Source: Mesonia sp. K7 (lineage in GTDB: Bacteria; Bacteroidota; Bacteroidia; Flavobacteriales; Flavobacteriaceae). Taken from it: a stretch of 64,000 nt of DNA. Position 1 is the first letter of the stretch. Every line of letters begins with the position of its first letter. The position numbers were made by a program, and so were the translations under genes. Below are positions 10,549 through 23,386 of this stretch, in pieces. The stretch covers positions 1-64,000 of the forward strand of contig NZ_QKQV01000003.1 of assembly GCF_003233725.1 (NCBI RefSeq). Direction: 5' to 3'. A model generated the notes under the pieces. It saw nothing but the letters and a program-made list of their open reading frames with translations, had not been told where the DNA came from and did not search any database.

Positions 10549-10575
10549 TTTTTTTGCTTCAAGCGGATAAAATAT

Positions 10576-10606
10576 AAAAAACCCTCGCAATTGTGAGGGT
10601 TTTTTT
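10576..10606 (+). terminator. Intrinsic terminator of ahcY
   Basis: AAAAACCCTC / GAGGGTTTTTTT with an 8-nt loop, 28 nt after the ahcY stop. It separates ahcY from the restriction-modification module. Confidence 0.88.
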
Positions 10607-10643
10607 GTTGATAAGTATTTTAGATAATTTAAAATGTATGATT

Positions 10644-10686
10644 TAAATTTGTAACCATATAGAAAGATATATAATATGGTTACAAA
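10644..10686 (+). promoter_or_regulatory. Methyltransferase promoter overlapped by a perfect 13-bp inverted repeat
   Basis: TAAATTTG (10644-10651) is a perfect Bacteroidota -7 box. The left arm TTTGTAACCATAT (10648-10660) covers half of that box, and the right arm ATATGGTTACAAA (10674-10686) contains the start codon (10676-10678). The arms are exact reverse complements separated by 13 nt. The site has the architecture of an autoregulatory operator for the HTH domain at the N-terminus of the enzyme encoded downstream. Confidence 0.75.
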
Positions 10687-11947
10687 ATCTATTTACTCGA
10701 TTTCGGAAGCAGCTGAAATTTTAAACAAAAACCCTGAAACACTAAGAAGATGGGATAATGAAGGGAAATTGAAAGCCGTAAGAGAACCTATGAGTAATTA
10801 TAGAACTTACAAAAAAGAGCAATTAGAGGTTTTCCCTGAATTTAAAAATTATTTTAAGAAAATTGACGAAGGAAATTTTGTAACTCCTTTTAAAGATTAT
10901 TCTGTAATGGAACTGTTTGCTGGAGCGGGTGGCTTAGCTATTGGTCTCGAAAAAGCAGGTTTAAATTGTAAAGCTCTTAATGAAATCGATAAATGGGCTT
11001 GTCAAACCCTTCGTAAAAACAGACCTAATTGGAACGTTTTAGAAGGCGACATTAAAGATTTGGATTTTTCTACATATCAAAATAAAATTGATGTTGTTAC
11101 AGGCGGATTTCCTTGCCAAGCTTTCAGCTATGCAGGCAAAAAACTAGGATTTCAAGATGCTCGTGGTACACTTTTTTACGAGTTTGCTCGTGCTGTAAAA
11201 GAGATTCAACCTAAAATCTGTATCGGCGAAAATGTAAAAGGTCTTCTCAATCATGATAATGGTCGCACCTTAAAAGGTATGATTTCTATTTTAGACGAAA
11301 TTGGCTACCGCGTTGTTTCGCCTGTCGAGGTTCTTAAAGCCATACATTATAATGTACCACAAAAAAGGGAAAGGCTTATTTTGGTTGCCATAAAAAAAGA
11401 TATTGATGTTGATTATACCTATCCTAAACCTTTTTCTGAGGTGTATACCTTAAAAGATGCCTTAAAAAAAGGTTCTTTATTTGATAAAAATGTTCCTAAA
11501 TCTAAAGGTTCGACTTATCCAGAACACAAAAAGAAAGTCTTAGAGTTGGTTCCGCCAAAAGGCTACTGGCGTGATTTACCGCTTGAAATCCAAAAAGAAT
11601 ATATGCAAAAAAGTTTTTATCTGGGTGGCGGAAAAACCGGTATGGCAAGACGTATTGGCTGGGATGAACCTTGCCTAACCCTAACTTGCAGTCCTGCTCA
11701 AAAACAAACTGAGCGTTGCCACCCTGATGAAACCAGACCTTTTACCGTGAGGGAATATGCCCGAATTCAGACCTTTCCCGATGAATGGAAGTTTGAAGGC
11801 TCAGTTTCCCAACAATACAAACAAATTGGAAATGCTGTACCCGTAAATCTCGCAAAGGAAATTGGATATTCTATAATTTCTTTTCTTAATAAAACTGAAA
11901 TACAAAAAAAGAAGTATCAAGTTTCTCTTTCGGAAAATCCTTTGTAG
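10676..11947 (+). CDS. HTH-fused DNA cytosine-5 methyltransferase of a type II restriction system
   Basis: The 423-residue protein has two parts. Residues 1-60 form a MerR/excisionase-type winged helix-turn-helix (SISEAAEILNKNPETLRRWDNEGKL). Residues 75-415 form a C5-methyltransferase with the SAM motif FAGAGG (81-86), catalytic PCQ (146-148), ENV (185-187), QKRERL and the late motif QIGNAVP. It should methylate the inner cytosine of the site cut by the adjacent endonuclease, probably a GGWCC- or GGNCC-like sequence judging from that partner. The HTH and the inverted repeat at its own start codon suggest it represses itself. Its 3' end overlaps the convergent endonuclease gene by 31 nt. Confidence 0.93.
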   Translation: MVTKSIYSISEAAEILNKNPETLRRWDNEGKLKAVREPMSNYRTYKKEQLEVFPEFKNYFKKIDEGNFVTPFKDYSVMELFAGAGGLAIGLEKAGLNCKALNEIDKWACQTLRKNRPNWNVLEGDIKDLDFSTYQNKIDVVTGGFPCQAFSYAGKKLGFQDARGTLFYEFARAVKEIQPKICIGENVKGLLNHDNGRTLKGMISILDEIGYRVVSPVEVLKAIHYNVPQKRERLILVAIKKDIDVDYTYPKPFSEVYTLKDALKKGSLFDKNVPKSKGSTYPEHKKKVLELVPPKGYWRDLPLEIQKEYMQKSFYLGGGKTGMARRIGWDEPCLTLTCSPAQKQTERCHPDETRPFTVREYARIQTFPDEWKFEGSVSQQYKQIGNAVPVNLAKEIGYSIISFLNKTEIQKKKYQVSLSENPL

Positions 11948-12693
11948 TAATAGAAGTTTTGAAAAGTAATTTCATCTAATAAATTTCTGTTCGATTTTTG
12001 CGCATCCGCAGAAATATCAGATAAAATATCGTGTTGCTTCGTTTTTGTTGATTCAATTATTTTAAGAAAGTCATTGATTGCTATAGGTAGAGCTTGATAT
12101 AGTTTCAATAGAGCATTACCATCACCTGTCAATAAACTGTAAAATTGATCTCCTGAAACAATATAAACTCTACTGTGACTGTATTCTTTTCGGTTAATAA
12201 TTCCCTCCCATTTTTTAAGAAAGCTCTTTTTTGCTAAAATCTGTACCAAGTAACATTTAGCTTGACGATTGTCATCGGCAAAACGAGCTAATTTCTGAAA
12301 AGCACTTTCTGCCGAACTACTATTCATCGTATTGTGCTTGTTTTTGATTTCCGCAAAAAGTGAGTCATCATCAGCCTTTACATCATAACCAGCGTGTTTT
12401 GCACTAGAAAACCCTTCAATACCACCCAGTATTTCTTCATGAAAAGTCCCAATCGCATTATTTACCGATTTGTCAACTTGTCGAGACATTTCGAGTTTAA
12501 TCAATTCTTCTTCTGAAAGCTCATTAAATTTAGAATCAAAAGTAAGTTTAAAAGTATCTACCTTATTTTTATAAAACTTGGCTTTGGTAAATTCCCTTTT
12601 GGCTTCCAAATACGACTGATACAGGTTAGATATACATTGCAATAGGTGCTCATCGCTCACAAAATCAACATACTTATTTTTAGATTGGTTCAT
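11917..12693 (-). CDS. Type II restriction endonuclease, Eco47II-like
   Basis: The 258-residue protein matches the Eco47II/Sau96I-type restriction enzyme family. The central block has IGTFHEEILGGIEG (81-94) followed by AGYDVKADDDSLFAEIKNKHNTMNS (split here: E115 and K117 lie in AEIKNKHNT), the PD-(D/E)xK-type active site. Known members cut GGWCC or GGNCC; which one applies here cannot be read off. It is convergent with the methyltransferase, overlapping 31 nt, and divergent from the vsr-like gene by 24 nt. No separate controller protein is present. Confidence 0.85.
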   Translation of the reverse strand: MNQSKNKYVDFVSDEHLLQCISNLYQSYLEAKREFTKAKFYKNKVDTFKLTFDSKFNELSEEELIKLEMSRQVDKSVNNAIGTFHEEILGGIEGFSSAKHAGYDVKADDDSLFAEIKNKHNTMNSSSAESAFQKLARFADDNRQAKCYLVQILAKKSFLKKWEGIINRKEYSHSRVYIVSGDQFYSLLTGDGNALLKLYQALPIAINDFLKIIESTKTKQHDILSDISADAQKSNRNLLDEITFQNFYYYKGFSERET

Positions 12694-12717: not shown

Positions 12718-13188
12718 ATGCCTTACGAAGATAAGAAAATAAAAGTACCTCGTTTTGAGGAGTCGGCTGGGTTTTATACCACCAAAAAACGCTCAAAAAT
12801 AATGAGCAAAATTCGTAGCAAAAACACGAAGCCCGAATTAATTTTTCGTAAGGCTTTGTGGAAAAAAGGAGTGAGGTATAGATTAAACAACAAGCTTCCG
12901 GGGAAACCAGATATTTCCATCAAGAAGTACCGATTAGCTATATTTATAGATGGTGAGTTTTGGCATGGTCATAATTGGGAAGAACGTAAAAAAAACATCA
13001 AAAGCAATAGTCGTTTTTGGATTCCTAAGATTGAGCGTAACATGCAACGTGATCGAGAAGTAAACCTCCAATTGGAAAGAATGGACTATAGGGTCTTTAG
13101 GTTTTGGAGCCATGAAATAAAAAACAACCTCAACCAATGCATCAGTGATGTTCTCACCTATATTGAAACAGGAAGGAATGACTGGTAA
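12718..13188 (+). CDS. vsr: Very short patch repair endonuclease (Vsr)
   Basis: Vsr nicks beside T:G mismatches that arise when a methylated cytosine deaminates, and so protects sites of a C5-methyltransferase from mutation. The 156-residue protein has the family blocks KRSKIMSKIRSKNTKPE, RYRLNNKLPGKPDI (catalytic Asp) and LAIFIDGEFWHGHNW, ending with a strand YRVFRFWSHEI. The family zinc-binding cysteines are not evident: the FWHGC position reads FWHGH. It completes the module and should act on the same site as the methyltransferase. A near-consensus -7 box, TATTTTTA (12702-12709), lies just upstream. Confidence 0.92.
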   Translation: MPYEDKKIKVPRFEESAGFYTTKKRSKIMSKIRSKNTKPELIFRKALWKKGVRYRLNNKLPGKPDISIKKYRLAIFIDGEFWHGHNWEERKKNIKSNSRFWIPKIERNMQRDREVNLQLERMDYRVFRFWSHEIKNNLNQCISDVLTYIETGRNDW

Positions 13189-21762: not shown

Positions 21763-22821
21763 TTAGCTGTAAAAATTGTAGGTTTCCAAAAACTTATGAA
21801 TCACAATTGGCACGGCAAAATCATTTACACGTTTATACTTTACTGGTATAAATTTTTGTGAAAAACCTTTAAAATCATCGACTTCGATTTTCCAAAAATT
21901 TACCCATAATTTACGGTGCGAAAGTACATGTTTTATGGGTTTTTCATGCTGTAACTCAATACTTTTTACAAGTAATTTAGGGTTTTGCTGGCGCATATAT
22001 TCTTTAATGTCACTTTCGTGGAAAATTTGTTGTTCACTTTCGTATAAAGGAAACTGGAATAAATTTCGCCAAATACCTTTTTGTTCGCGTTTCTCTAATA
22101 AAACTTCCTCATGTTGGTTTTTAAAAATCAGGAAATTAAAATGCTTTTCCAGCACTTTTGTTTTTTTGAGTTTTACGGGAAGTTCTGTAATTTTATCCAA
22201 TTGAAAGGCTTTGCAGTCTTTTACCAACGGACAAACTTGGCAATCGGGGTTTTTGGGAGTACATTGCCGTGCACCAAATTCCATAATGGCTTGGTTATAG
22301 ATTGCAGGTTGGGCCTTGTCAAGTTGCCCCTCTGCCTTTTGTTTGAAGATTTTTATTCCTTCCGTACTATTTATAGGAATATCAATTCCGAAATAGCGAC
22401 TCAAAACACGATAAACATTTCCATCGACCACAGCAACTGGCTCACCATAACAAAAAGAAGCAATCGCACTTGCGGTGTAATCACCAACACCTTTGAGCTT
22501 TTTTAAATCAAGATAATTATCTGGAAACCTGCCTCCGTTTTCTGCAATTTGTTTTGCCGTAAAATGTAGGTTTCTAGCTCGGGAGTAATACCCCAAACCT
22601 TGCCAAAGTTTTAAAACTTTATCTTCTTTTGCTTGGGCGAGTTCAAAAACAGTAGGGAAGTTTTTAATAAATTTTTTATAATAAGGTAAACCTTGAGCAA
22701 CGCGAGTTTGCTGCAACATAATTTCGCTAAGCCATATATTATAAGGCTCCTTGGTTTTCCGCCAAGGTAAATCCCGAGCGTTTTCTCGATACCAAAAGAT
22801 GATTTGTTGTGAAAATTTCAT
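21763..22821 (-). CDS. mutY: A/G-specific adenine glycosylase MutY
   Basis: MutY removes adenine mispaired with 8-oxoguanine or guanine. From the ATG at 22821 (MKFSQQIIFWY) it is 352 residues. Motifs are the helix-hairpin-helix LKGVGDYTASAIASF, the catalytic Asp in AVVDGNVYRVLSRY, the iron-sulfur cysteines in ARQCTPKNPDCQVCPLVKDC and a C-terminal NUDIX-like domain (about 230-352) that recognises 8-oxoG. A longer frame beginning with TTG at 22836 is less likely. First gene of the mutY-ssb-gldE-gldD unit and divergent from the HU gene. Confidence 0.95.
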   Translation of the reverse strand: MKFSQQIIFWYRENARDLPWRKTKEPYNIWLSEIMLQQTRVAQGLPYYKKFIKNFPTVFELAQAKEDKVLKLWQGLGYYSRARNLHFTAKQIAENGGRFPDNYLDLKKLKGVGDYTASAIASFCYGEPVAVVDGNVYRVLSRYFGIDIPINSTEGIKIFKQKAEGQLDKAQPAIYNQAIMEFGARQCTPKNPDCQVCPLVKDCKAFQLDKITELPVKLKKTKVLEKHFNFLIFKNQHEEVLLEKREQKGIWRNLFQFPLYESEQQIFHESDIKEYMRQQNPKLLVKSIELQHEKPIKHVLSHRKLWVNFWKIEVDDFKGFSQKFIPVKYKRVNDFAVPIVIHKFLETYNFYS

Positions 22822-22881
22822 AAAAACAAGTTGCAAATATCGAACAATTTCTATACTTGGTTATTATTTAAACATTTAGAG

Positions 22882-22913
22882 TTGTTTGATTGGGAATTTA
22901 ATTGCTATATTTG
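22882..22913 (+). promoter_or_regulatory. Promoter of the HU-like gene
   Basis: TATATTTG plus C (22906-22913) with TTG at 22882-22884 (21-nt spacer) and another TTG at 22886-22888 (17-nt spacer): a near-perfect Bacteroidota promoter. Confidence 0.75.
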
Positions 22914-22954
22914 CACCCTCGAAAATAATAACTTTATATTAAAATAACACTATA

Positions 22955-23245
22955 ATGACAAAAGCAGATATTGTAGCCAATATTTCAGAGAAATTAGGTA
23001 TCGAAAAAGGTGATGTTCAAGCTACTATTGAGTCTTTTATGGACGAAGTAAAAACTTCATTAGAAGGCGGAGACAATGTTTACCTAAGAGGTTTTGGAAG
23101 TTTTATTATTAAAACTCGTGCAGAAAAAACAGGAAGAAATATTTCTAAGAATACAACTATTAAGATTCCTGCGCACAATATTCCGGCATTTAAACCTGCA
23201 AAAGTTTTTGTTGAAGGAGTAAAGACAAACGTAGAAGTAAAATAA
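22955..23245 (+). CDS. HU-family DNA-binding protein
   Basis: A histone-like protein of 96 residues that bends and compacts DNA. It starts MTKADIVANISEKLGIEKGDV and carries the family signature GFGSFIIKTRAEKTGRNISKNTTIKIPAHNIPAFKPAK (read in parts), including the IPA beta-arm tip. Whether it is HU-like or IHF-like cannot be decided by eye. It is followed by a tiny basic gene in what looks like the same transcript, which ends at a strong hairpin. Confidence 0.93.
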   Translation: MTKADIVANISEKLGIEKGDVQATIESFMDEVKTSLEGGDNVYLRGFGSFIIKTRAEKTGRNISKNTTIKIPAHNIPAFKPAKVFVEGVKTNVEVK

Positions 23246-23273: not shown

Positions 23274-23366
23274 ATGCCAAGTGGTAAAAAAAGAAAAAGA
23301 CATAAGGTAGCTACTCACAAGCGTAAAAAGAGAAGAAGAGCTAACCGTCACAAGAAGAAAAAGTAA
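23274..23366 (+). CDS. Tiny highly basic protein, possibly ribosome-associated
   Basis: A 30-codon frame starting ATG CCA AGT GGT encodes MPSGKKRKRHKVATHKRKKR followed by a basic tail (RRANRHKKKK). Over half the residues are lysine or arginine, as in the smallest ribosomal proteins. I recall near-identical sequences between the HU and RNase G genes of other flavobacteria, and a bTHX-like or other ribosomal role is likely but unproven. It starts 28 nt after the HU stop, and its last codons form the left arm of the terminator. Confidence 0.75.
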   Translation: MPSGKKRKRHKVATHKRKKRRRANRHKKKK

Positions 23367-23386
23367 TTCTAGGAATTACTTTTTCT
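23356..23386 (+). terminator. Terminator overlapping the stop of the small basic gene
   Basis: Perfect 14-bp stem AGAAAAAGTAATTC / GAATTACTTTTTCT with a 3-nt loop (TAG). The left arm includes the TAA stop codon (23364-23366). It separates the HU-small-protein unit from RNase G. Confidence 0.75.

Follow-up and report, generated by a model that had tools for sequence, protein, structure and literature searches.

A predicted three-half-site operator at the start of a C5 DNA methyltransferase gene with an N-terminal MerR-type winged helix-turn-helix

Methyltransferases that carry a fused repressor domain are treated as an accepted class, whose members include the helix-turn-helix (HTH)-fused autorepressor enzymes SsoII, Ecl18kI and EcoRII (PMC12707154, PMC3874152). 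The operator of M.SsoII has been placed at +7..+21 (PMC6100179, PMC3695355), while promoter competition has been described for Ecl18kI and antisense control for EcoRI and Eco29kI (PMC3874152). The MerR-like winged-HTH protein BldC recognises a G-C pair through Arg30 and, 4 bp away, an AT-rich minor groove through its wing (PMC5859096). The system examined here, in which an N-terminal HTH is fused to a C5 methyltransferase, fits the HTH-fused repressor class by its anatomy, and it offers a testable answer to the question of how restriction systems that lack a controller keep their methyltransferase in bounds when moving between hosts.

The window, by which we mean the whole stretch of 64,000 nucleotides analysed from Mesonia sp. 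K7 (contig NZ_QKQV01000003.1), contains the following features at and around the module.

10576..10605, no strand assigned: terminator-like hairpin that lies between the module and the ahcY-like gene preceding it (15-nt arms 93% complementary; terminator-like site on the minus strand)
10644..10651, plus strand: -7 promoter box TAAATTTG, from sequence
10648..10660, minus strand: left arm, with half-site core GTAACC at 10651-10656 (GGTTAC on the minus strand)
10665..10670, plus strand: place of the lost middle half-site (AGATAT in the window; nGTT in 104 of 110 rows)
10674..10686, plus strand: right arm, with half-site core GGTTAC at 10678-10683, overlapping the start codon
10676..11947, plus strand: C5 DNA methyltransferase gene with an N-terminal MerR-type winged HTH (423-aa product)
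10694..10834, plus strand: HTH domain, residues 7-53 (PF13411, E 4.3e-08; model and fold search)
11917..12693, minus strand: Eco47II-family restriction endonuclease gene, convergent (PF09553, E 3e-78)
12718..13188, plus strand: Vsr mismatch endonuclease gene (PF03852, TIGR00632)

The HTH head is followed by a C5 methylase domain, whose Pfam match starts at residue 76, and the methyltransferase and endonuclease genes overlap tail to tail by 31 bp (11917-11947). With an Eco47II-family endonuclease adjoining a C5 methyltransferase, the module is of the Eco47II type of restriction-modification system, and a GGNCC specificity is presumed from the family. The Pfam match bears out the MerR-type HTH that an earlier note on this DNA had seen in the enzyme, and the module indeed contains no separate controller gene among open reading frames (ORFs) of at least 50 aa, as that note had also claimed. 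Within the first vsr codons, TATCTTCG (12726-12733, minus strand) comes near TAnnTTTG and is, by eye, a candidate -7 box of the divergent endonuclease gene. Elsewhere in the genome (contig C13 of G000, 21984-22976) lies a second C5 methyltransferase-like gene (L149), 35% identical and without a MerR-type head.

The left arm, TTTGTAACCATAT, is the exact reverse complement of the right arm, ATATGGTTACAAA, at 13/13 positions across a spacer of 13 bases, and the two arms fall on the -7 box and on the ATG at 10676, which lies inside the right one; on all of this the earlier description was accurate. Perfect repeats with arms of at least 13 bases and spacers of 3-30 occur twice in the window, at the methyltransferase start and at 23357, and not at all in six dinucleotide shuffles of it, while local shuffles of 10549-10760 gave a perfect repeat in 1 of 2000 trials. 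The inverted repeat at the methyltransferase start is real and beyond chance. The pattern GTAACCATAT-N5/20-ATATGGTTAC is found at a single place in the whole genome. The other perfect repeat of the window (23357-23385) reads GAAAAAGTAATTC-tag-GAATTACTTTTTC, with a 3-base loop.

Relatives were drawn from 397 genomes of the family, a contig collection (the best 80 of 288), 395 genomes of the phylum, viral contigs (5 loci) and plasmids (10 of 34 records), together with gammaproteobacterial groups of 321, 24 and 63 genomes around Marinicella litoralis and two matches in its class. The locus set does not include two phage records that matched in part. At 66% identity or more, and with the start reached, there were 120 loci, including three copies of the window's own (L001, L003, L131), and comparison over -60..+60 leaves 110 distinct loci, with the window among them. 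Fifteen loci set aside at this 110-row stage were counted again, where distinct, in the comparison of heads with elements described below (152 rows). A second match of the DNA search in the window's own genome (L002) is taken as chance, and its surroundings read by eye as nhaA-like.

In 109 of these 110 distinct relatives both a left TAACC and a right GGTTA core are found, the right core being GGTTA throughout except for GGGTA in L021; the lone exception is a viral contig (L132) in which no start codon is visible and a repeated stretch lies just upstream. All three half-sites are present in 104 of the 110, laid out as [GA]TAACC, 8 or 9 bases, nGTT, 9 bases and GGTTA (GGGTA in L021), with 9 bases between the left and middle half-sites in 79 of the 104 and 8 bases in 25. 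The middle half-site has been lost in the window and in L023, L076, L125 and L130. The outer arms pair as GTAACC/GGTTAT (82 of 109), GTAACC/GGTTAC (13), ATAACC/GGTTAT (13) and GTAACC/GGGTAT (1), the last arm base often breaking strict DNA symmetry, and perfect outer arms of at least 13 bases occur in only 4 of the 109 distinct rows (L001, which is the window, L004, L037 and L041). By this comparison the outer half-sites are the most conserved pair, perfect 13-bp arms are a local feature, and the repeat of the window reads as a worn variant of a conserved, putative operator. The 13-bp palindrome that the earlier note took as the unit does not survive as such, GGTTA half-sites being what is conserved instead; its picture of two arms stands for the outer pair and misses the middle half-site, which the window happens to have lost.

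Information amounts to 1.69 bits per column in -7..+5, in the left half of the element, to 0.46 bits in the 38 upstream columns (composition by itself would give 0.32) and to 0.66 bits at the third positions of codons 6-45; the DNA immediately upstream of the element is unconserved. In 41 of 109 rows the first codon is TTG and the third is ATG, and GGTTA is retained both within codons 1-3 of an ATG start and ahead of a third-codon ATG. Since it is retained in both start-codon arrangements, GGTTA is evidently kept as DNA, not as protein. Across the 397 family genomes, TTTRTAACC-N8/9-nGTT-N9-GGTTA gave 28 matches in 27 genomes, 26 of them at the methyltransferase start and two elsewhere (G371, G196), and a reversed control pattern gave 7. 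The clade's gene is present in 29 of these genomes (a fragment in G041 counted), 26 of which carry the exact pattern; the window's genome (G000), G016 and G152 miss it through one worn half-site. In these genomes the three-half-site element is thus private to the methyltransferase gene.

In Flavobacterium johnsoniae the TAHHTTTG box is placed at -12..-5 (PMC6847099), and the placement is likewise in F. psychrophilum (PMC9723704). This register puts the predicted +1 at 10656 and therefore gives a 20-nt leader; on this numbering the left arm spans -8..+5 and the right arm +19..+31. TTTG is common to the left half-site and the -7 box. The 107 element-bearing rows from outside the Gammaproteobacteria have TAnnTTTG at -7, exactly in 92, at 5 of 6 positions in 12 and at fewer in 3. 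In the 12 gammaproteobacterial rows, which have the left and middle half-sites at a spacer of 8 (L043, L048, L137, L138, L153-L158, L161 and L167, of which L137 is the same gene as L048 and L167 a disrupted copy), the box is TATAAT-like, starts at -4 to -8 and matches at 6/6 positions in seven, 5/6 in three and 4/6 in two. Their third half-site lies 13 bp on in three rows (L043, L048, L137), 10 bp on in seven, and is absent in L138 and L155. A TTGATA/TATAAT promoter considered for L043 and L048 was dropped, the register check having placed the -10-like box at -8. Some 110 bases ahead of its start, L155 carries the left-middle half-site pair in duplicate. Between the phyla the promoter grammar changed, yet the element remained at nearly one register.

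The element can also be set against the protein that follows it. With an intact MerR-type head defined by [LI]R[RI][WY] and YRx[YF], 152 distinct rows were compared; the element is present in 118 of the 122 rows with an intact head (window included) and in 1 of the 30 whose head is degenerate, unrelated or missing, that one being L167, an intact-type gene that has been disrupted (for 13 of the 30 the start was extrapolated, the match having begun no earlier than residue 35). Shuffled upstream regions contained the element in 94 of 30400 cases. The earlier proposal was to be abandoned if relatives with the same HTH lacked a palindrome at this position, and it is the element, not its lack, that the intact-head rows display. 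The four intact heads without it are L132, L139, L159 and L160; by eye, L139 has an imperfect palindrome of another layout upstream, and the upstream DNA of L159 and L160 looks coding, as the end of another methyltransferase. Two methyltransferases fused to another HTH type (L146, L147) are without the element. On a tree from which the fragment L145 and the window's short copy L001 were dropped, leaving 150 of the 152 rows, the element label needs 6 changes, compared to a mean of 29.4 in shuffles, the tree being a quick one under a plain model with long-branch warnings; independent head/element pairs on supported branches number 3, which is too few to test the link. Head and element are thus associated mostly through one inheritance. 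When 17 variable operator features were searched for co-variation, the HTH residues (37 of 208 columns) held 0-3 of the ten best columns per feature, with no clear enrichment over other residues; the length of the spacer (8 or 9 bases) follows residues 57 and 311 without exception, a sign of phylogeny.

As to the fold of the head, a model of residues 4-74 built from 54 sequences (mean pLDDT 82.1) fits MerR-class domains. The best match in a fold search was RacA (E 1.6e-3; none reached 0.001), BldC chains lay on the model at an rmsd of 1.1-1.7 A over 46-50 columns (E 2.3e-3 to 1.4e-2), and a profile of the head alignment found MerR regulators (3qao, E 6.3e-07) and BldC (6amk, E 3.8e-4), such that Pfam, fold search and profile agree on a winged HTH of this class. 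Residues T22, R24, D27, R36, P38, Y42, R43 and Y45 (enzyme numbering) are invariant in the 54 heads. After the wing the model has one short helix, of low confidence at its end, and what follows the head is the C5 methylase domain rather than the C-terminal coiled coil and effector domain of a MerR regulator. MerR regulators have their operator between the -35 and -10 boxes. The element described here begins at the -7 box and extends downstream, lying as a putative operator over the -7 box, the predicted +1 and the start codon of the methyltransferase's own gene.

Taken together, the comparison makes it very probable that this site is the operator of a DNA methyltransferase that represses its own promoter through an N-terminal winged HTH of the MerR/BldC type. 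The self-repression suggested in the earlier note is in this respect well supported, even though the perfect palindrome on which it was founded is not the conserved unit. The winged-HTH heads of the enzyme would bind GGTTA-type half-sites, and since these extend from the -7 box over the transcription start to the start codon, their occupation would block RNA polymerase. In a new cell, where the enzyme is absent, the methyltransferase gene would be fully transcribed, and as the enzyme accumulates transcription would drop to a set level. The unequal spacings of the half-sites may favour heads that are separately tethered over one rigid dimer, and their GG-N4-AAA layout fits a BldC-type reading.

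An operator at the endonuclease gene itself was considered and rejected, half-site hexamers being found at the endonuclease start (-70..+30) in only 3 of 56 loci (L090, L101, L111), where starts are approximate if the match began inside the protein and L001, L057 and L131 have no upstream sequence. Because the endonuclease promoter carries no such site, any effect on restriction, the methylation-first timing suggested by the earlier note included, would have to be indirect. Of the 56 Eco47II-like loci, three of which are copies of the window's, 52 are convergent, and 45 of these 52 overlap tail to tail by 12-31 bp. At the other 64 loci (counts not deduplicated), the nearest ORF of at least 110 aa downstream of the methyltransferase gene runs convergently in 52, with an overlap in 43 of them, and co-directionally in 5; no such ORF was found in 7. 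Four of these downstream ORFs were classified: the convergent ones of L005 and L014 are of the EcoO109I type and the co-directional ones of L073 and L105 of the TdeIII type, so that at least two endonuclease families, TdeIII not among them, share the convergent overlap. With the genes tail to tail and overlapping, early transcription of the methyltransferase gene would run antisense into the endonuclease gene and could hold down the endonuclease until self-repression sets in. We regard this antisense restraint as a possibility somewhat short of an even chance. More tentative again is the notion of a two-gene establishment timer without a controller, which would combine the MerR-type head, a portable three-half-site operator working on two unrelated promoter grammars (TAnnTTTG of Bacteroidota and TATAAT of proteobacteria), the antisense brake and a convergent endonuclease gene of one or the other of two families. 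If the antisense step were true, the gene order itself would be part of the timer. An operator fixed in place while the promoter grammar changed would explain the module's self-regulation after transfer. The interest of the system rests on its breadth, the class of its head, an operator that crosses phyla and the convergent overlap.

Other explanations of the repeat must be weighed against autorepression. The two arms could form an RNA hairpin that regulates translation by hiding the start codon. Strong folding is expected of a transcript that includes both arms (z -4.34), and the last arm base varies in a way that G-U pairing in RNA would permit, ATAACC/GGTTAC never being seen in the 109 rows, though about 1.6 rows of that kind are all that would be expected without pairing. 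However, the left arm overlaps the conserved -7 box, such that no more than 5 of its 13 bases are contained in the transcript predicted from 10656; the leader from that position has no unusual fold (z -0.77), and the middle half-site, which has the same orientation as the right one, has no role in a hairpin. As a main reading we reject it, the leader fold in particular making it very improbable. It is also improbable, if marginally less so, that some other regulator of the host binds the element. That the enzyme itself binds is a prediction, which leaves room for such a regulator, yet in the 397 genomes 26 of the 28 matches are at the methyltransferase gene, the element is retained in hosts of two phyla, and it is missing in 29 of the 30 rows without an intact head.

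Conservation might, in turn, reflect nothing other than promoter and translation-start signals, given that a -7 box and A-rich starts are conserved in Bacteroidota and an A at -3 favours initiation (PMC6847099). The GGTT cores belong to neither signal, though, the element persists beside a TATAAT-like box in Gammaproteobacteria, and GGTTA is retained whether inside codons 1-3 or before a third-codon ATG, leaving this account highly unlikely. Finally, methylation of a recognition site within the promoter could control the gene, as is known in other restriction systems (PMC12707154). The presumed recognition sequence GGNCC is absent from -120..+30 in all 118 intact-head rows that have the element, which makes such control unlikely, and we give it a negligible chance. 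Over the same interval GGNCC occurs in 0 of 122 rows with an intact head vs 2 of 30 rows without one. In the window as a whole it is found 39 times, where about 63 would be expected from composition (CCNGG 46, CGNCG 47, GCNGC 101). Two plasmid relatives (L113, L114), with a degenerate head and divergent endonuclease and methyltransferase genes, carry a GGNCC site (GGACC) between those genes; for them, control by methylation is possible.

Autorepression by the fused head, as the preferred reading, can now be compared to described systems. The enzyme shares with M.SsoII and M.Ecl18kI the fusion of an N-terminal HTH to a C5 methyltransferase, and its promoter carries, as theirs do, an inverted repeat, here the predicted operator. 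Their N-domains resemble C proteins, whereas the head here is of the MerR class by Pfam and fold; their operator is one 15-bp repeat, AGGACAAATTGTCCT, whereas the clade has three GGTTA half-sites; and their methyltransferase and endonuclease genes are divergent, with competing promoters and that repeat between them, whereas here the endonuclease gene is convergent and overlapping, in the window as in most Eco47II-like loci. As head, site and gene order all differ, the system is not SsoII-like. M.EcoRII, too, carries a fused repressor domain, through which its own gene is repressed and that of the endonuclease is not (PMC12707154); its repression depends on methylated sites. RptR similarly occupies three short sites in an array over a restriction promoter, but is a separate repressor of another fold that acts on TAGCTA direct repeats in a Type I system (PMC12255303). 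BldC is the closest fold among short DNA-bound domains (6amk, 6ama) and likewise lacks a coiled coil; it binds 9-bp direct repeats head to tail, unlike the one inverted and two direct half-sites found here, with periods of 13 or 10. A literature search of a limited collection found no MerR-type head regulating a C5 methyltransferase gene. Relative to the known class, what appears to be new is the combination of a MerR-class head, a predicted operator of three half-sites and an endonuclease gene that overlaps tail to tail.
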